Of a stretch of DNA of 64,000 nt, positions 31,359 through 63,747 are shown one piece after another (the first letter of the stretch is position 1; every line of letters begins with the position of its first letter). Below the pieces are notes generated by a model, which saw only the letters and a list, made by a program, of their open reading frames with translations, was not told the origin of the DNA and made no database searches. Made by a program: the position numbers and the translations under genes. Source of the stretch: a bacterium (GTDB lineage: Bacteria; Verrucomicrobiota; Verrucomicrobiia; Limisphaerales; J093); NCBI GenBank assembly GCA_021823625.1, contig JAKANS010000005.1:1-64000 (forward strand). Direction: 5' to 3'.

Positions 31359-31596
31359 CGTTGTCGGATATGCGGTCTTCTGTTAGCCTGCGCTTCCGTC
31401 TGCTGGCAACGACTTTCCGCCATCGCCGGCCGACTTCCGAAAAACGGTTGACGCGGTGGGCCGGGCGCGAAAGATTGACGCCGTAACTCCAAATGACCGA
31501 ACTCCAAAAGTGCTTGCAGCCGCGCTTGGCCTGATCTGCGACGGTTGGCGTCTCCAGTCCTCAAACGCGGGCGCAAGCTCAACAAAGAAGTGTGGT

Positions 31597-34500
31597 ATGA
31601 AAAGCTGGCATAACCTTGGCGGTTTCGTGGGCGGCGGATTGCTCGTGGCGTGTCTGGGCGGCCTCTGGCCGGCCTCGGCCCGGGTGTTGGATGACTTCAA
31701 CGCGGCGCAGGCGAGCGGCTGGGAGGACTCGAACCCAGCCGGTCAGCCATTGCCGGGAGGGAAGCAGGCGAACGGCGTCTTTACCTTTGACTTGCCGGCC
31801 ATCGGGCAACCGTACTTCGTGGCCAGCACCAAGAAGACGGAGACCTTCGAACTGAAGGAGGGCCGCAATCTGGAATTCCGCGTGGACCTGGTCAGCGCCC
31901 TCGGCCCGGACTCCTACGCCGTGTTGGCGTTCATCCCCACGACGACCGGTGCCAACTCGTTGGCCGGCTACGGCATCGCGAAGTCGGAGACCGACTTCCT
32001 GATCACCAAGGGCATCAACAAATACTTCCTCGACGACGTGCCGTCGCCGGAGTTGAAGAACCAGAACGTTACCCTGACGCTCAACCTGACCGTCCGCAAC
32101 GGCAACGTCGAAATCACCGGCCAGGTCCTGGACAAAGATGACGGCAACCGGGTGATTTACGAAAGGCGCGTGGTGGACACGCCCGCGGCCGACATCATGT
32201 CCGATGGCACGGACGATCCGCCGGCGCCGTTCATCACCAGCGGCTATTTCGTGCTCTATCTTTACGCGGACAATGGCACCGAACCTGCCGGTTACCAGGT
32301 GGTTTATGACAACGCCGAAGTGCTGGTTTGCGATGCAACGGTGCTGGACGACTTCAACGCGGCCCAGGCCACCGGCTGGGAGGACTCCAATCCCGCCGGC
32401 CTGCCACTGCCGGGCGGCAAACAGGCCAACGGCGTATTCACGTTCGATTTGCAGGCGATCGGCCAGCCGTACTTCGTGGCCAGCACCAAGAAAACCAAGA
32501 CCTTCCAGTTGGACGAAGGCACCCGCAACGAGTTCGCCGTGGACATGGTCAGCGGACTGGGCATCGATTCGTTTACCGTGCTCGCGTTTATCCCGACCGC
32601 GACCGGGGCCAACTCCCTCGGCGGGTACGGCATCGCCAAGTCCGAGAGCGATCTGCTTATCACCAAGGGCATCAACAAGTACTTCTTCAACGAGAACGTG
32701 GACCCGCCGGTCAAGAATCAAAACGTGACCCTGGTGCTCACCCTGACCGTGCTCCACGGCAACGTCGTCATCCGCGGGCGTGTGTTGGACAAGGACGACC
32801 ACAACGCCGTTTTGTTCGACAAGACCTTCGTGGACACGCCTGCGGCCGATGTCATGGCCGACGGCGACGACGACCCGCCGGCTCCTTTTGTTGAGATGCC
32901 GGGCAATGTGGTGCTGTACCTTTATGCCGACGGCGGCCAGGATCCGGCCGGCTATCAGGTGGTTTACGACAACCTGATCGCCTCCACGCCTCCTTCCACC
33001 GCGAACGAACCGCCGGTGATCCTCGAGGTGACACCGAAGACCGGTGCGAGCTTCCTGGCCGCACCCACGACGTTGTCGTTCAAGGTGTCGGATGACAAAC
33101 CGATCGCCGACTCGGGGGTGTCCGTCAGCTTGAACGGGCAGCTCATCACCACGGCCAACGGCCTGACCCTGAGCGCCGCCGGAACCACGCGGGTGGCGAC
33201 CCTGGCCGGGCTTGGCGCCAACACGAATTACGTGGCCGAACTGACGGTGGTGGATTCGGACAACGTTACCCGCTCCGAAACGACGTATTTCGACACCTTC
33301 GTGGCCACCGATCGCGTGACGGAAATCGAGGACTACAACTTCGATTCCGGATCCTATTTCAACAACCCGGTGCGGACCCCCGAAGGTTGGGGCCAGGACA
33401 ACAACTCGTACGTGGATCGGGTGGGGGTTGAAGGCACGGATTTCCACGACACCCGGACGGCTCCGAGTGGGGCCGACACGCTCTATCGAACGCAGGATCC
33501 GGTGCGCATGGCGCACACGCTGGATAAGCCGCGCCCGCAGTTCGACCCGGACAACTTTGTCTTCGACTACGACGTGGGTGACCTCGCCGCCGGCGAATGG
33601 CTCAATTACACGCGCGAGTTCACCGCGGGTTCATACGAGGTGTACTTGCGCGAGGCGGTGGTGAACTTCGTGCAGGCGGACAGCGTGCTGGAACAGGTCA
33701 CCAGCAGCGCCAGCACCCCGGATCAGACCACCACGCAGTTGGGCACTTTCTTCGGCAAGCTTAGCGGCTACACGTTCCGCAACGTGCCGCTGACCGACGG
33801 CACCGGCCTGAACAAAGTAGTGCTCAAGCTGTCCGGCAAAACAACGCTCCGTCTGCGCCACCTGACCGCGGACACGGATTCGGCGAACCGATATTTAAAC
33901 TACCTCATCTTCGTGCCCGTCTCGGACACGGGCGTTCAGCGGGCCACAATCACGTCGCTGCTGCCGACCCCGAGTTCCACGGTGCAGACCGTGACTCCCA
34001 CGATTGAGGCGGTGATCAAGAACCGCGACACCAGCGTGGACACCGCGACCATCCGGCTTGAAGTCAACGGCCAGACGGTGACCCCGACCATCACGCCGGA
34101 CGCCTCGGGCGCGACGGTCTCGTGGGCGATGTCTCCGCTGCCGGCTTCGGGCGCCGCCAACACCGCCAAGCTCAGCTTCAAGGACAACCAGACGGTCGAA
34201 AGCGTCACGGAATGGAGCTTCGTGGTAACGTACAAGCACCTTGATCCGGCGAACCGCCGGAGCGGCCCAGGGCAGGATCGGGGCTTCCAAGTACGCATGG
34301 TTCAGGCCCCCGCTGGATCCAATCTGGAAAACAGCCTCGACCGTGCCGAAGCCCAGCTCGCGGCCAACTCCACCATCCCGGTCTATGTGGACACGAACGT
34401 CGTGGAACAGGTGGTCAACATGTCCCAGGACGGATCGTCTGCGGGCAATTTCCCTGACAAGTACATCGTGCCCGGCTTGGATGACTTCAACGGGACGGAC

Positions 34501-35037
34501 GATTTCGTCGTGGAGGCCCGAGCTTGGCTCGAGTTGTCCGCAGGCGTGCATCGCTTCGGCGTCGTCAGCGACGACGGATACAAGATCTCTTCGGGCGCGA
34601 AGACCTCGGACAAGGAGCCAATCCTCGGCTTCCACAACGGCGGACCGGCCAACGAAACCTCCGACTTCGTCGTGCCACAGGCCGGGTTCTACCCCTTCCG
34701 CATGATCTGGTACGAACGCGGCGGCAGTGCTTACGCGGAATGGTTTTCGCAGGACACGGCCACGGGCGAAAAGACGCTCATCAACGATCCCAGCTCGACG
34801 AAGGCCATCAAAGCCTACCTTAATGTCGCGGCCGAGCCGGCCATCAAGCTGCAGTTCGTGGATCACCTCGGCGACGCGTTCGGCGACGACAACGCCGCAG
34901 TCGTGAACACCACCTCCAAGACCATCACCACCCCGGTCGGCGGCAGCACACGCTTTTACCGGCTGCGCAGCGACACCGCGCACACGCTCAAGACGATCCA
35001 TCTCGAAGGTGGCAACGTCGTCTTGACCTACGAATAG
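31597..35037 (+). CDS. Large secreted CBM6/PA14-like protein with duplicated N-terminal module
   Basis: A 1146-aa exported protein (signal MKSWHNLGGFVGGGLLVACL). Two copies of a module of about 218 residues follow (VLDDFNAAQASGWEDSNPAG ... and VLDDFNAAQATGWEDSNPAG ...), then an Ig-like segment (TPKTGASFLAAPTTLSFKV), a CBM6-like carbohydrate-binding stretch (AGEWLNYTREFTAGSYEVYL), another Ig-like piece, and a PA14-like domain (GVHRFGVVSDDGYKISSG ... GSAYAEWFSQD). No catalytic motif is recognised, so adhesion or polysaccharide binding is likely. The tracked start adds 47 residues lacking signal character; ATG 31597 is better. A strong terminator follows. Confidence 0.8.
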   Translation: MKSWHNLGGFVGGGLLVACLGGLWPASARVLDDFNAAQASGWEDSNPAGQPLPGGKQANGVFTFDLPAIGQPYFVASTKKTETFELKEGRNLEFRVDLVSALGPDSYAVLAFIPTTTGANSLAGYGIAKSETDFLITKGINKYFLDDVPSPELKNQNVTLTLNLTVRNGNVEITGQVLDKDDGNRVIYERRVVDTPAADIMSDGTDDPPAPFITSGYFVLYLYADNGTEPAGYQVVYDNAEVLVCDATVLDDFNAAQATGWEDSNPAGLPLPGGKQANGVFTFDLQAIGQPYFVASTKKTKTFQLDEGTRNEFAVDMVSGLGIDSFTVLAFIPTATGANSLGGYGIAKSESDLLITKGINKYFFNENVDPPVKNQNVTLVLTLTVLHGNVVIRGRVLDKDDHNAVLFDKTFVDTPAADVMADGDDDPPAPFVEMPGNVVLYLYADGGQDPAGYQVVYDNLIASTPPSTANEPPVILEVTPKTGASFLAAPTTLSFKVSDDKPIADSGVSVSLNGQLITTANGLTLSAAGTTRVATLAGLGANTNYVAELTVVDSDNVTRSETTYFDTFVATDRVTEIEDYNFDSGSYFNNPVRTPEGWGQDNNSYVDRVGVEGTDFHDTRTAPSGADTLYRTQDPVRMAHTLDKPRPQFDPDNFVFDYDVGDLAAGEWLNYTREFTAGSYEVYLREAVVNFVQADSVLEQVTSSASTPDQTTTQLGTFFGKLSGYTFRNVPLTDGTGLNKVVLKLSGKTTLRLRHLTADTDSANRYLNYLIFVPVSDTGVQRATITSLLPTPSSTVQTVTPTIEAVIKNRDTSVDTATIRLEVNGQTVTPTITPDASGATVSWAMSPLPASGAANTAKLSFKDNQTVESVTEWSFVVTYKHLDPANRRSGPGQDRGFQVRMVQAPAGSNLENSLDRAEAQLAANSTIPVYVDTNVVEQVVNMSQDGSSAGNFPDKYIVPGLDDFNGTDDFVVEARAWLELSAGVHRFGVVSDDGYKISSGAKTSDKEPILGFHNGGPANETSDFVVPQAGFYPFRMIWYERGGSAYAEWFSQDTATGEKTLINDPSSTKAIKAYLNVAAEPAIKLQFVDHLGDAFGDDNAAVVNTTSKTITTPVGGSTRFYRLRSDTAHTLKTIHLEGGNVVLTYE

Positions 35038-35147: not shown

Positions 35148-36281
35148 ATGAGCCAGGACAATCTCTTGATCGTGGCCGACAGCGCCCGCTGCGCCGATTT
35201 GCGCTACGCGGTGGGGCTGTGCGTGCCGGCGCCGTTCATTTACCTGCGCGTGAATGGGCGCGGGTACGCGGTGCTGGGCGACGCGGAACTGGACCGGGTC
35301 GGGCGGCAGGGGCGGAAATGCCGGGTGCTGTCCCTTTCACGCTGTCAACGCCAGCTCCGCCGTGCGGGCGAAAAACACCCCGGCTTGGCGGCGGTGATTC
35401 GCCTGCTGGTCGGCAAGAAAGACGCGGGGCGTCTGCTGGTTCCGGCGGACTTTCCGCTCGGCCTGGCGCGGGAACTCCGCCACCTCAAAGTCCGGGTGCG
35501 GCCGCGGACGGGCGAGTTGTTTTTCCCCGAGCGCGAATTCAAGTCCGCCGAGGAAATGGAAATGATTCGCGCCGCCGTCGTGATGGCGGAGGTGGGGTTG
35601 GCGGAGGCGATCCAGGCACTCAAGGACTCGAAGATCGGCCCGCGTGAGCAACTCATTTACCACGGCTCGCCCCTCACCGCCGAGAAACTGCGCGGGATCA
35701 TTCAGGTGGCGATTCTTCAGGCCGGCGGGCAGGCCAGCCGGACGACTGTGGCCGGCGGGCGCCAGGGATGCGACTTGTACGAGATCGGTTCCGGCCCGCT
35801 GCCGGCGCACCGGCCGATAACCCTGCAGGTGTTCCCTCGGTCCGAGAAAACCGGTTATTACGCCAACATTGCCCGCACGGTGGTTCGCGGCCGCGCCTCT
35901 GAACCGGTGCGAAAACTCTACGCCGCGGTGAAGGACGCCCAGGAAATCGCGCTGGACCGGTTGTGCGATGGCGCGCGCGCGCGCGAAGTTCACGCCACGG
36001 TGCAGGATCACTTCGTCCGGGAAGGCTTCCGCACCAGCCGGGCCAAAGGGGCGCAGCGTGGCTTCCTGCACGCCACCGGCCACGGCCTCGGCCTTGCGCC
36101 TAGCGAACCGCCGCACCTCACAGCCGCCAGCGACGAAGTCTTGCGGCCAAGTCAGGTCGTGGCTCTGCATCCGGCTCTGTACTATCCCGAGTTCGGCGGG
36201 GTGCGCGTCGGCGACGTGGCGGTGGTCACGCGCAACGGCGCCCGCAACTTAACCCAGTTCGAGAAGGTCTTGGAAGTGTGA
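35148..36281 (+). CDS. M24-fold (Xaa-Pro peptidase-like) protein with degenerate metal site
   Basis: A 377-aa protein with an N-terminal creatinase-like domain and a C-terminal pita-bread fold. The fold signatures are clear (KSAEEMEMIRAAVVMAEVGL, GFLHATGHGLGLAPSEPPHL, GGVRVGDVAVVT). Four of five metal ligands are not. Where active M24 enzymes have Asp in D-x-F/G and G-D-I-T-R-T, this reads LQVFPRSEKTGYYANIARTV. Where they have E-P-G and R-x-E-D, it reads ALHPALYY and RVGDV. The His survives. It is therefore probably not a metallopeptidase and may bind peptides or act as a scaffold. Start ATG gives SQDNLLIVADS. Confidence 0.82.
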   Translation: MSQDNLLIVADSARCADLRYAVGLCVPAPFIYLRVNGRGYAVLGDAELDRVGRQGRKCRVLSLSRCQRQLRRAGEKHPGLAAVIRLLVGKKDAGRLLVPADFPLGLARELRHLKVRVRPRTGELFFPEREFKSAEEMEMIRAAVVMAEVGLAEAIQALKDSKIGPREQLIYHGSPLTAEKLRGIIQVAILQAGGQASRTTVAGGRQGCDLYEIGSGPLPAHRPITLQVFPRSEKTGYYANIARTVVRGRASEPVRKLYAAVKDAQEIALDRLCDGARAREVHATVQDHFVREGFRTSRAKGAQRGFLHATGHGLGLAPSEPPHLTAASDEVLRPSQVVALHPALYYPEFGGVRVGDVAVVTRNGARNLTQFEKVLEV

Positions 36282-36471: not shown

Positions 36472-37197
36472 ATGATGCCTGGACTCTTTTTCGGACCGTG
36501 GGATTGGCTGATGATTCCCGGTCTGCTGATCGGTATGTGGGCGCAGTTCAAACTGATGTCCACCTACAACCGTTACGTGCGCCAACCGGTCGAGACCGGG
36601 GTGACGGGCGCTGACGCGGCGCGCGAGATTCTTGACCGCGCCGGTCTGCGGCAGGTGCCGGTCCAGCCCGTGCCTGGCCACCTGACCGATCACTACGATC
36701 CAATCAAACGCGCGCTCTTCCTGTCCGAAGAGAACTACCACGGACGGTCCATCGCCGCGGTGGGGGTGGCGGCTCACGAAGCGGGCCACGCGCTCCAGCA
36801 CAAAGAGGCTTATGCGCCGCTGCAGTTCCGGATGATGATGGCGCCCGCGACCGGCATCGCCAGCACGGCGGTGTGGTTGATCCTGGGCGCGGGCTTCATG
36901 CTGATGATGTTCCGCATCATCACCCCCAGCCTGTTCGGGGCGCTGCTGCCTTACGCGATCGGCGCCTTCGCTTTTGTGACGCTGTTTCAGTTGGTGACGT
37001 TGCCGGTCGAATACGATGCGAGCCGGCGCGCCAAAGTGCAGTTGTCCCAGCTCGGGATCGTCCGCAGCCATGAAGCGGGAGCGGTGAGCGAAGTGCTGGG
37101 GGCGGCGGCCCTCACCTACGTCGCCGCGTTGGTGGCGTCCGTGCTGCAGTTGCTGCGCTTGGTCATGATCGCGCGCGGTTTCAGCCGAAACAACTAG
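36472..37197 (+). CDS. YugP-type membrane zinc metallopeptidase
   Basis: A 241-aa membrane protease of the neutral zinc metallopeptidase (YugP/Zn_peptidase_2) family. The catalytic HExxH is in VGVAAHEAGHALQHKE; N-terminal helix (WLMIPGLLIGMWAQ) and two central helices (residues 120-175) flank it, and ROP-like LPVEYDASRRAKV is the usual downstream Asp/Glu-containing segment. Starts at the ATG with a ribosome site AAAGGAAACG 6-8 bp before it; the ten extra tracked residues are unlikely. Substrate is unknown. A terminator follows at 37219. Confidence 0.85.
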   Translation: MMPGLFFGPWDWLMIPGLLIGMWAQFKLMSTYNRYVRQPVETGVTGADAAREILDRAGLRQVPVQPVPGHLTDHYDPIKRALFLSEENYHGRSIAAVGVAAHEAGHALQHKEAYAPLQFRMMMAPATGIASTAVWLILGAGFMLMMFRIITPSLFGALLPYAIGAFAFVTLFQLVTLPVEYDASRRAKVQLSQLGIVRSHEAGAVSEVLGAAALTYVAALVASVLQLLRLVMIARGFSRNN

Positions 37198-38566: not shown

Positions 38567-39997
38567 CAACTTGGGAGGTTGTCAAATTCTTAGTTGAAAA
38601 TTCTCTGAGCGGCCCGAGGTGGTTCATGTTAAAAAAGCTTTTAGAGTGAATTCGTCGTAGCGTGTTCGGCTTCAATGTTCGCCAGGACTGCACGGATGGC
38701 CTCATGGCCTTTAATGGTTCGGAAGCTCCGCTCCGCGTAGAGCAGCACGCTGGCCAGCCAGCGCCGAGCCATCCTGGAATTGCGATAGCGTTTGATGTTT
38801 TTCTCACAGGCCCGCACCCGCGAGAAGAGGCTCTCGATGGGGTTGGTCGCGTGCAGCGTCGTGCGCAGCAGCGCCGGGGCCTTAAGTCGGTGCAGCGTCA
38901 GCAGTTCCTGGAACGCTTCTAACAAGGAATCGGCCGCCGACTCGTTGATGGCCCGCAGCCACTGCTCCAGCTCCCCCAGCAGTTTCTCGGCTTCTTTGTA
39001 ATCGTTCTGCTCCAGCGCCACCCGAAAACGGCGGTGGGCTTCCTTGCGGTATTTCTTGGGCCGATGGGCCTGGAGATTGCGGTCCTTGTGGATCGTGCAT
39101 CGCGGCACCAGCAGCTTGCGCCCGTAGCGGTCTTTAAGCGCCTTGGCCGTGCCTTTGCCCCCGTCAATGATGAAGAGCACCTTGGCATTGAGTTTGAGGC
39201 CGCGCTGCTCCAAATCCGCCAGCAACATTTCCCCGATCTCGGCGTTTTCGGTGGCTCCCTCCCAGAAGCCCAGCGCCCGCTTCTGGCCGCCGATATCCAG
39301 CCCCAGGGCCACCACGAAGGCCGTGCCGCCCCGATGCCCCGTGTCCAGGAACATCGCAAAGGGCGCGAAGTCCTCCAGACGCCGCTCGCGAAACTCTTTG
39401 AGCTTTTGGGTCGTCGCTTCCACCAGGCGCTCAGAAACAGCGCTGGGCGATACGCCAAAAGCCTGGGCCGCCCCCCCCACCGTTTCCCGATAACGCCGCG
39501 CCGAGAGCCCTGCCAGCGACTGACCCAGCAACTGCTCGGAGAAGCCCTCCGTGTCTCGCATCGCCTCGTAGCTCTTGAGGCTGACCTCCTGGCCCCCGCG
39601 CCGCAGCCGCGGCCGTTCTACCGCCGCCTTCTGGCCCCCGATGAGCACGGACCCCGCCTCCGAGGCCCATTTGTACAAGCCCTCCCGCCGGGGTTGGTCA
39701 TCCGGGCCAGCTCGTTCCTCGCGTTCCGCGTAGAGGATGAACTCGGCCAGTTCCCGCCCCAACTCCAGCGTCACCTCGTTGAGGGCCCGGCTGCCGGTTT
39801 GCATGATGTCGTGCATCCGCTGACGCATCCGCTCCTGATCGGTGATTTGCCGAAATCCGGCCATTGCTTTTTTCCGATTCTTAGTCTCAACTTTCATGGT
39901 GTGGCTCCTGTCTTGTTTTTTTGTTCAGCGTGGTTGTTACCACGCCGGGAGCCACTCTTCAAATTTCAACTGAATTCAGGATAACCTCCAACTTGGC
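38567..39997 (-). mobile_element. IS256-family insertion sequence with long imperfect terminal repeats
   Basis: The transposase gene lies between imperfect inverted repeats of roughly 50 bp. The left end reads CAACTTGGGAGGTTGTCAAA then TTCTTAGTTGAAAATT; the reverse complement of the right end reads CCAAGTTGGAGGTTATCCTG then AATTCAGTTGAAATTT. Similarity continues to a shared G-TGG/GAGCGGC-like stretch. The exact outer bases are uncertain, and no clean target duplication was found, so adjacent deletion may have occurred. The right end cuts into the restriction gene. Confidence 0.65.
38641..39897 (-). CDS. IS256-family (Mutator-type) transposase
   Basis: A 418-aa full-length transposase. DDE residues are visible in APFAMFLDTGHRGG, KVLFIIDGGKGTAKAL and ATNPIESLFSRVR, with the C-terminal conserved WLASVLLYAERSFR. 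The family also shows VPRCTIHKDRNLQAH, the C-H-x-x-R-N zinc-like box between the second Asp and Glu. Length and motifs suggest an active enzyme. First methionine MKVETKNRKKAMAGF is supported by an AGGAGCC leader. Confidence 0.88.
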   Translation of the reverse strand: MKVETKNRKKAMAGFRQITDQERMRQRMHDIMQTGSRALNEVTLELGRELAEFILYAEREERAGPDDQPRREGLYKWASEAGSVLIGGQKAAVERPRLRRGGQEVSLKSYEAMRDTEGFSEQLLGQSLAGLSARRYRETVGGAAQAFGVSPSAVSERLVEATTQKLKEFRERRLEDFAPFAMFLDTGHRGGTAFVVALGLDIGGQKRALGFWEGATENAEIGEMLLADLEQRGLKLNAKVLFIIDGGKGTAKALKDRYGRKLLVPRCTIHKDRNLQAHRPKKYRKEAHRRFRVALEQNDYKEAEKLLGELEQWLRAINESAADSLLEAFQELLTLHRLKAPALLRTTLHATNPIESLFSRVRACEKNIKRYRNSRMARRWLASVLLYAERSFRTIKGHEAIRAVLANIEAEHATTNSL

Positions 39998-40279: not shown

Positions 40280-40411
40280 GGGCGCATCTCACTTTCTTGC
40301 AACTCCGGTGGGAATTCCGAGGAAAACCGGAGATTTGCCTTGGGATCTCTGAGTGAAATCATGTGAATTCCCCCGGAAAACGGAGGGTGTGCAAGAAAGT
40401 GAGATGCGCCC
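40280..40411. mobile_element. 132-bp MITE with perfect 22-bp TIRs and 9-bp target duplication
   Basis: Perfect terminal inverted repeats start GGGCGCATCTCACTTTCTTG at both ends (22 bp). The flanks are identical 9-mers, TAGGTCGTA, at 40271-40279 and 40412-40420. Removing the element and one 9-mer rejoins the methylase reading frame exactly (VFSKATT to YTCLLFLG). Insert plus duplication is 141 bp, a multiple of three. It has no transposase; the family that moves it cannot be named from TIRs alone. Confidence 0.92.
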
Positions 40412-41408
40412 TAGGTCGTAGCCTTGGAGAAAACTTGCTGGTCACCAAAATGGACGATGTGCACAAGATGTTTGCCAGCGGACAGAATTTCACGGAGCGC
40501 CTGGCCGTATTGAGCATTGAAGAATTTGTTGGGCAAGATGAAGCCAAGCCGGCCGGCCTTGGCTAGCAACCCAAGTCCGCATTCGGCAAATACAACGTAG
40601 ATGTCGTAGTTGCCCTGGCTTGCGGCTGTGTAGGTATGATTGAAGTATTCGACTTCCTGTGGCTGCGAATCCTGCATCGTCTGGATGCGGACGTACGGTG
40701 GATTTCCAATCACCGCGTCGAAGCCGCCTTCCCATTCTGGTCCAATCGCCGGCGAGAGGGGCATTGCCTTCTCGCCCTTCCGCTTCTTGGAACCGTCGCT
40801 GCCAGGTAGCGGCACGCCGGGCCTGGTGTAGTCCAGGGGCGCAGCAGGCGTCTCGCGCAACTCGCCACTGGAAGTCGCGCGCCGGAATATTTGCGGGAAC
40901 TCCGCCTGCCAGTCGAGGACGTTGATGCGGTAATGTTCCTCGTCGGTGAGAAGCGGGAGTTCGGATTGGTGGTAGAAATCCGGGCCGATGAGCGAGTTGC
41001 CGCACTTGATGTTGTCGCCGAGGTCGGGCAGGGCGCGTTCCTGGGAGAACCGGAAGAGGGTCTGGAGGCTTTGCCCCGTCTCGCCCTCCAGCACTTTGAG
41101 CCGCAGGGAGAGTTTGGTGACCTCGACCGCCTGCGTGTCAGTGTCCACGCCGAAGAGGTTGTTCAGGAGAATGCGCTTGCGCTCGGCGATGGTGAGTTTC
41201 CAGCCGCCGCTGGTCTGCACCAGGGCGGGTTTGCTGCCTTTCGCCCACTTCGCCGGGTCATTGGCCAGGTGGAATTGGAGATGCCAGTCCAGCAGGAATT
41301 GGTAGGCGCCGATGAGGAAGGAGCCCAAGCCGCAGGCGGGATCGAGGATGTGGCGTTGAGCGACGCGGTTGAGCATAGTGGTGGCGGCGCGAGGCGAAAG
41401 TGGGCCAC

Positions 41409-41515
41409 GCTCGCCCTCACCCGCAACAACCAGTTTTCCTCCTTCAACCCTCACCCGGCCTTCGGCCACCCTCTCCCACTCCGGTGGGCGAGGGTCCGGG
41501 GGAGGGGGAAGCGCG
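41409..41515. repeat. CCCTCACCC-type repeat inside the restriction gene
   Basis: Degenerate relative of the element at 2904-3048: CGCCCTCACCC, CCCTCACCCGGCCTTCGGCC, ACCCTCTCCCACTCCGGTGG and a G-rich close. On the minus strand it is read in frame as a Pro/Glu/Arg/Gly-rich stretch (PPPPDPRPPEWERVAEGRVR) just before methylase motif I, where relatives have a short variable loop. Confidence 0.65.
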
Positions 41516-42725
41516 CTTGAAGAAACCGGTTCGCCTGAAGTGTTGCCGGAGATTTCCGCCAGCAGTTTCCCAACGGTCTGCCGGACGATGTAGTCCACAA
41601 TGTAGGTGGGCGTGTAATAAACGCCGCCGGCCGTCTTCACCTCCGGCTTGTCGTCCACCACCGCGCGGTGGCCCTCGGTCAGGCGGATGACCTTGCCGAG
41701 AAATTGCTCATAGACCTGCCCAAGAATGTCGGCGGTGAGGACGGAGAATTCGTAGGGACTGTCGGGGTAGTAGAGGCTGCGCAGGATGTCGCGCAGCAGC
41801 TTGTCGTCGAGATCGAGGGACCGCGTGAGTTCGTCGGGATCTTCGTGCCGGCCCTTTTCCCTCTTGAAATGGAAGAGGCCGGAGTTGTAGCGGGCGGCGG
41901 CGGCCTCGAACAACTGGCACAAGCGCGGGGAGATGCGGTCGCCGTTTACGAACGCGCGCAGCCGGCCGTAGTCCTCGATGCCGCGGTCCTCGCCGATGCG
42001 AAGGAAGATGATGCGGTCAATGATGCGCTGGACGGCGAAGTTGAGTTCGCGCTGGCTGAGCTTCGGATTGCGGAGGGCGCGGTTCTCGGCCAGGCGCTTG
42101 CGCCAACCTTCGATGGTTTCAAGGAAAGCGTCGTCCACGGTGGTACCACGCTTGCCCTTGGAGCTTTCGGCGAACTTGTCGAAGGAACCTTTGAGGACGG
42201 CCTCGCGGGAGAAGACCGAAGCGATCCAGTCCCACTTCTCGCCGAGTTCGCGGAAGGTGCAATAGAAGATGCGGGCGGTGGCGGCGGGGTCATCCTGGTG
42301 CGGCTTGATCCGGCAGTCATAGACGGCGAACTCCTCGAAGTCGCTGAGGATGCTGAGGGGAAGCTTGGCGGACCAGGCGTAGCGGCGGAGCTGGTAGGCG
42401 GGGCTGGGCTCGTCCTTGATGCAGACGGACGGCTTCTTGGCTTCGAGGAAGAACTTGCGCGTCCCGCCAATGCGGAAGCCGTAGTCGGGCGCTTTCGTCG
42501 CGCCGCCGCCGCGAATCTGGTCCTCGTGAATGACATCCTTATAGGCCTCGGCGTAGCCCTGCACATTGTCCACGTCCCAACCGAGAGCCTGGAAGAGCGG
42601 GTCGAGGAACTCGCGGCGGAGCTGGGTTTCGTTGTACTGGCCGGACTTGTAGGCGTCGCGTTGCTGCTCGAAGCGAGCGACAAGATCCAGGACGGTTTGG
42701 GGCGCACTCATCGTTTCGAGTAAAG

Positions 42726-42899
42726 GGCATTTCCCGGTTGCGAAAACACCGCGGTACCGGCGCCGGTTTCCTTCACACCGCCGTGGCCCAAGGCCTGGAA
42801 GCGGCGGACCTGGAAGCGCTGGGCTTCGCCCTTCTCGTGCCCGGTGACGTGCTGGAGGCACCAGGCGACAAAGCCCTCGATCGGTACGGCGTCCGGCAT
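42726..42899 (-). pseudogene. N-terminal fragment of a second methylase/type IIG gene
   Basis: A short open frame upstream of the restriction gene reads MPDAVPIEGFVAWCLQHVTG then HEKGEAQRFQVRRFQALGHG and GVKETGAG. This matches the start of a different family of large DNA methyltransferases, which normally continue D-R-L-F-Q-A-F-G-H. The match stops after about 48 codons. It looks like debris from another restriction system, with small internal losses (RFQVRRFQAL). Bases 42900-43047 contain nothing else recognisable. Confidence 0.45.
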
Positions 42900-43047
42900 G
42901 GGGAGGTTGTAGCGAAGTGGGCGGCAGACCGGAAAGGAAAAGCAGTGGGCTGGCGATCCAATCGCGGCCGTGCCCGCACGAACTCGTCTTCACTCCGAAT
43001 TCCAATTCTCGACGGGAAGCTCCCGAAGACGCGGTCTGCAGCCGAAC

Positions 43048-60585: not shown

Positions 60586-63747
<3,162 letters not shown>

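Follow-up and report, generated by a model that had tools for sequence, protein, structure and literature searches.

The reading frame at positions 35148–36281 of the window, by which we mean the whole 64,000-nucleotide stretch of DNA that was analysed, encodes a protein of the M24B peptidase family that has lost most of its catalytic centre. As judged from its sequence, this protein is very probably dead as an M24 metallopeptidase, and the gene has probably been maintained by selection after the loss.

The gene is listed below.

35148–36281, forward strand: putative pseudo-peptidase M24B open reading frame, 377 amino acids plus stop, frame intact

Pfam matches the product to Peptidase_M24 (PF00557, E = 6.5e-31), and the 377-residue protein used as query also matches the solved Xaa-Pro dipeptidase 1pv9 (E = 8.5e-20). 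The predicted structure is a canonical pita-bread fold (pLDDT 91.7) whose top PDB match is the Xaa-Pro dipeptidase 3q6d (TM 0.80–0.85), with 1wy2 and 5cnx also among the matches; Foldseek comparison with Xaa-Pro dipeptidases gave E values of about 1e-26 and TM scores of 0.78–0.85, and creatinase occurs among the fold matches. The M24B pita-bread catalytic domain is present both by sequence and by predicted fold, and the structure prediction agrees with the claim of the earlier note on this DNA that the M24 fold is kept. No signalling domain linked within the protein was found with Pfam.

The ligand columns were read from alignments to Pyrococcus Xaa-Pro dipeptidases and to 122 orthologues, using the numbering of E. 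coli PepP, with ligands and histidines taken from PMC5774706 and PMC10377022. The metal ligands of PepP are D260, D271, H354, E383, and E406 (PMC5774706, PMC10377022); H243 is the proton-shuttle histidine (PMC5774706), and its replacement by Ala abolishes activity in the E. coli enzyme (PMC10377022). The corresponding positions in the window, taken from the orthologue alignment and, for the four acidic ligands, from the dipeptidase alignment as well, are as follows.

35778–35780, forward strand: Y211, replaces the proton-shuttle His (PepP H243)
35826–35828, forward strand: Q227, replaces a metal ligand Asp (PepP D260)
35865–35867, forward strand: N240, replaces the bridging metal ligand Asp (PepP D271)
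36069–36071, forward strand: H308, kept (PepP H350)
36081–36083, forward strand: H312, the sole metal ligand kept (PepP H354)
36102–36104, forward strand: S319, replaces the second shuttle His (PepP H361)
36168–36170, forward strand: H341, replaces a metal ligand Glu (PepP E383)
36210–36212, forward strand: G355, replaces the bridging metal ligand Glu (PepP E406)

Six of the eight catalytic residues are lost, leaving H308 and H312. The ligand set of active M24B enzymes, D, D, H, E, E, reads Q, N, H, H, G, and the shuttle and substrate set H243, H350, H361 is incomplete (Y211, H308, S319). The loss of two Asp and two Glu ligands to Q, N, H, and G, claimed earlier from the letters alone, is borne out by Q227, N240, H341, and G355, and the motifs cited for it are present as given; the accompanying claim that the active-site His remains holds for H308 and H312 (PepP H350 and H354) but not for the H243 and H361 positions. 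A search for other acidic ligands close by yielded none, and all motifs align without gaps except for a two-residue insert in one relative (G002). Alignment and predicted fold together describe a homologous fold with its catalytic residues lost, as in an M24 pseudoenzyme.

Across the order, the full set HDDHHHEE is kept in 111 of the 123 aligned orthologues. Intact examples (e.g. L006, L007, and L009) are 56–59% identical to the window protein and near-identical in length, and L007 and L009 have the same gene neighbours; they differ in keeping H, D, D, H, H, H, E, and E, and are presumed to be active Xaa-Pro peptidases. The catalytic centre is gone in all four genomes examined of the window's genus, that is, in the window protein, G001 (QRDHHDGK), G003 (QRDHHEGK), and G002 (GAEHHRVG). 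Besides this clade, three lineages have lost most of the centre: G011, from the same family as the window (QRVHNSGE), G318 (QDRHSAHG), and G045 (VAESHHEV). The window protein alters 15 of 84 near-invariant sites, and these changes fall on 11 of the 21 sites within two residues of catalytic positions compared with 4 of the 63 elsewhere (p = 1.5e-5). Chance does not account for the loss, given how many orthologues have the complete set of eight (111 of 123) and how strongly the changes concentrate near the catalytic positions.

G152, G100, and a three-member clade (G159, G088, and G160) show milder active-site changes. This clade (L111, L118, L127) is well supported, keeps all metal ligands, and carries Asn or Ser in place of H243, with dN/dS of about 0.10–0.13 inside it; in the G152 protein (L089) the acidic ligands are retained and Arg takes the place of H243 and of H354, and in the G100 protein (L134) Asp replaces E383. 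The degenerate protein of G318 (L135) has genus mates (L108, L110) that are fully intact at 52–53% identity, and this pairing is suited to studying the transition to catalytic loss. In G013, a congener of the degenerate G011, the orthologue was not detected.

When the eight catalytic columns are left out of the tree, all four genus members group together among intact relatives in a single clade (100/100 support), so that the conserved pseudoenzyme clade which the earlier note had proposed to look for does exist. The three genus members compared have derived residues in common, e.g. A13, C15, L18, R19, and Q186. G045 and G318 fall elsewhere in the tree, and for G011 a single loss common to it and the genus and two separate losses are neither of them favoured (AU p = 0.18). 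The gene is flanked by two syntenic neighbours.

31456–35037, forward strand: upstream neighbour, 1193-residue protein with a weak PA14 match
36472–37197, forward strand: downstream neighbour, YugP-like zinc peptidase (PF04298), start picked by eye at the ATG after AAGGAA

The order PA14 protein, M24, YugP is common to the window, G001, G002, G003, G007, G012, and G008, and dead and intact relatives have these same neighbours. All four genus genomes have larger and smaller M24 genes with a strong PF00557 match; in the window's genome (G000) these encode an AMP_N-type PepP and a MetAP-sized protein. A second copy of the M24B orthologue was not found in any of the four. On the grounds of synteny and of searches in each of the four genomes, we rejected the alternative of a paralogue superseded by an active copy. 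Because the neighbours are conserved with intact relatives and there is no second copy in the genus, the gene reads as an orthologue inactivated in place and not as a spare paralogue.

To assess selection after the loss, dN/dS was calculated, a check that the earlier note had suggested. Between G001 and G003, both of which are without the ligands, dS is 0.395 and dN 0.038, giving an omega of 0.097, and neighbouring genes in the same comparison mostly give 0.05–0.18. The substitutions lie at third positions in 94 of 125 cases, and there are 28 amino-acid changes compared with a mean of 83.5 and a minimum of 69 in a neutral simulation. On the window branch, setting omega to 1 costs 18 log-likelihood units in a codon model in which synonymous sites are near saturation. 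A codon model with a free stem gave a degenerate stem (omega at its bound, near-zero length) and was left uninterpreted, and pairwise dN/dS against the window is saturated (dS above 1) and served as background only. These data establish purifying selection after the loss for the G001/G003 pair and support it for the window's branch; tree, omega, and simulation agree on a clade maintained by selection after it lost catalysis.

Three of the genus genomes carry the frame at full length. In the fourth, G003, the frame changes three times, each time in a run of G, and beyond the indels the pattern of substitutions keeps to the original frame. At this locus (G003:C23:247122-248252; L040, L141), the M24 gene and two genes close to it all carry indels in homopolymer runs. 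Because all the frame changes are in G runs and neighbouring genes carry homopolymer indels too, they are likelier to be sequencing error than decay, and the frameshifts of this assembly are to be distrusted pending polishing. As proof of decay they were rejected, given also the frame-consistent substitutions. Frameshifts in relatives had been named beforehand as a sign of simple decay; one of the four genomes is affected, and indels confined to G homopolymers do not speak for it. The claim that the losses are not recent decay is upheld by the low omega after the loss, the rejection of neutrality on the window branch, and the three full-length frames.

From the common ancestor, the path is 0.60 changes per site to the window, 0.87 to G001, and 1.85 to G002, compared with 0.34 to the intact sister. 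As the genus paths exceed the sister's by a factor of 1.8 to over 5, some constraint is relaxed in the genus, and faster evolution is as expected from an active site released from constraint; the fast-evolving G002 copy erodes outside the pocket too. This quicker evolution would also fit a gene on its way out, with intact frames that are residual or held by selection against misfolded protein, as would the disabled or missing copies in relatives (the G003 frameshifts and the absence in G013) and the variation of pocket residues in every lineage. We consider such slow decay unlikely, as the ligand-less G001 and G003 show their low omega over a dS of 0.4, 87% of neutral replicates acquired a stop codon, the window and G001 proteins are both 377 residues long at 62% identity, and the G003 indels, all in G runs, resemble the homopolymer indels of two neighbouring genes.

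The closest known case is the pseudo-aminopeptidase domain of C. elegans PID-5, which has the aminopeptidase P pita-bread fold, the identical changes D260 to Q, D271 to N, and E406 to G, and, as in the window protein, lost H243 and H361 positions with H350 and H354 kept (PMC10377022, PMC7849312). PID-5 differs in retaining E383, where the window protein has H341, in carrying an eTudor domain and acting in piRNA silencing, and in its proposed origin by duplication of app-1, which persists (PMC10377022, PMC7849312). By analogy, the dead protein might place or tune the active aminopeptidase P of the same genome by dimerising with it. M24B dimers form by embracing contacts (PMC4108388), PID-5 with its Q, N, and G substitutions co-purifies with APP-1 (PMC10377022, PMC7849312), and one intact PepP with an AMP_N domain is present in the window's genome. 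However, this PepP is the only intact M24B partner found and is distant (27% identity, partial, E = 9.3e-4), the two genes are unlinked, and PID-5 is proposed as a duplicate of its partner enzyme, which the window gene is not. No close active M24B partner was found in G000 beyond this PepP and the MetAP-sized M24 protein, and because genus genomes hold none, we keep a regulatory subunit of this kind as a rival reading and regard it as improbable.

EBP1/PA2G4, the other well-known M24 pseudoenzyme, is a pseudo methionine aminopeptidase that acts by binding and has a partial ligand set, D109, N120, H188, D227, and K320 (PMC11266112); it differs in being eukaryotic, of the M24A (MetAP-like) type, and distant in sequence from the window protein. 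Our literature search found no account of a bacterial M24B pseudoenzyme, though an earlier description may exist. Most known pseudoenzymes are duplicates, with an active counterpart persisting next to them. In this case, it appears to be the orthologue that was inactivated, at a locus which is conserved and in genomes that retain no close active copy, and selection continues to act on it.

A different enzyme on the M24 fold, either metal-free like creatinase or with one metal at N240, H312, and H341, is quite unlikely. The fold does carry other chemistries, such as that of creatinase, which is regarded as metal-free; however, creatinase and ectoine hydrolase (DoeA/EutD), although they have the M24 fold, each rely as enzymes on a conserved catalytic set of their own, whereas no conserved replacement set is seen in the window clade. 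The catalytic His of creatinase, which we take to be at the H243-equivalent position, would correspond to Tyr in the window and to Gln or Gly in its congeners, and the shuttle histidine needed for PepP activity is missing. The window protein does have N, H, and H around the tight metal site, and for PID-5 it has been argued that asparagine supports binding of one metal (PMC10377022), but congeners read D/H/G and E/H/V at these sites, so no single-metal triad is conserved.

Where constraint remains was examined by comparing identity within the dead clade with that in triples of intact orthologues. It is 0.35 compared with 0.75 over residues 196–216, 0.67 with 0.86 over 217–250, 0.52 with 0.75 over 301–325, and 0.44 with 0.83 over 337–360, and is held in the N-domain (0.56 and 0.57). 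Two further segments stand out.

35508–35732, forward strand: residues 121–195, linker and long helices, identity 0.68–0.70 in the genus clade and 0.68–0.74 in intact triples
36228–36278, forward strand: C-terminal tail, residues 361–377 (RNGARNLTQFEKVLEV), where conservation within the genus is highest

Identity in the tail is 0.92 in the dead clade compared with 0.75 in intact triples, and 15 of its 17 sites are invariant compared with 142 of 360 elsewhere (p = 7e-5, in a test chosen post hoc on data already seen). Constraint is shifted off the active-site segments, while the 121–195 helices and the C-terminal tail stay conserved. Within the pocket, residues vary between congeners (Q/R/A, N/D/E, H/G/V, G/K/G), and this speaks against a new ligand site being conserved there; no conserved replacement binding site was seen among the genus members. 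The earlier proposal of peptide sensing, taken here as binding of peptides or dipeptides in the former active-site pocket, for which one can cite the fold, R353, and the histidines H308 and H312 kept in the window protein, is thus very unlikely, as R353 is Cys in the other three genus members, constraint is lost in the pocket-lining segments, and no signalling domain is attached. Of the selected non-catalytic function claimed before, selection and catalytic loss are supported and peptide sensing is not.

We slightly favour a non-enzymatic binding or structural protein that derives from an order-wide M24B orthologue, is kept by selection, and acts at its outer surface; such a scaffold or partner-binding role would fit better than sensing. 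In this reading, the gene is the positional orthologue of an Xaa-Pro peptidase present across the order, and it was the genus ancestor that lost the dinuclear metal centre and the proton-shuttle histidines; the pita-bread fold is predicted to be retained, and purifying selection has probably kept the protein. The pita-bread dimer could then serve as a binding protein or scaffold via its outer surfaces, namely the N-terminal domain, the 121–195 helices, and the C-terminal tail, with the old pocket drifting freely; candidate partners are its own homodimer, the genome's PepP, and the neighbouring YugP protease. That it works through these surfaces rather than the pocket is put forward tentatively.

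The intact sisters and several separate inactivations offer a natural experiment on the roles of an Xaa-Pro peptidase other than cleavage. It is conceivable, though doubtful, that a single-copy bacterial Xaa-Pro peptidase is repeatedly converted, at its own locus and without duplication, into a non-enzymatic protein under selection; if so, binding would have been a second function of the ancestral enzyme from before the loss of catalysis, and the only one kept after it. The window protein is also a warning for annotation, as pipelines would label it a metallopeptidase.

The window's lineage is represented by one metagenome-assembled genome (90.9% complete, 3.1% contaminated), whose assembly holds two 16S rRNA genes (G000:C277:300-1783 and G000:C182:13937-15505), and the bin may therefore contain a second organism. 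Past YugP, the conserved neighbours of relatives (a solute-binding protein and an ABC transporter) were not found in the window. It carries a Mutator-family transposase (38641–39897, reverse strand) and, beyond it, an Eco57I-type restriction-modification protein (40411–43005, reverse strand). Finally, a 1053-residue protein with a Ser/Thr kinase domain and a WD40 beta-propeller is encoded at 60586–63747 on the reverse strand.
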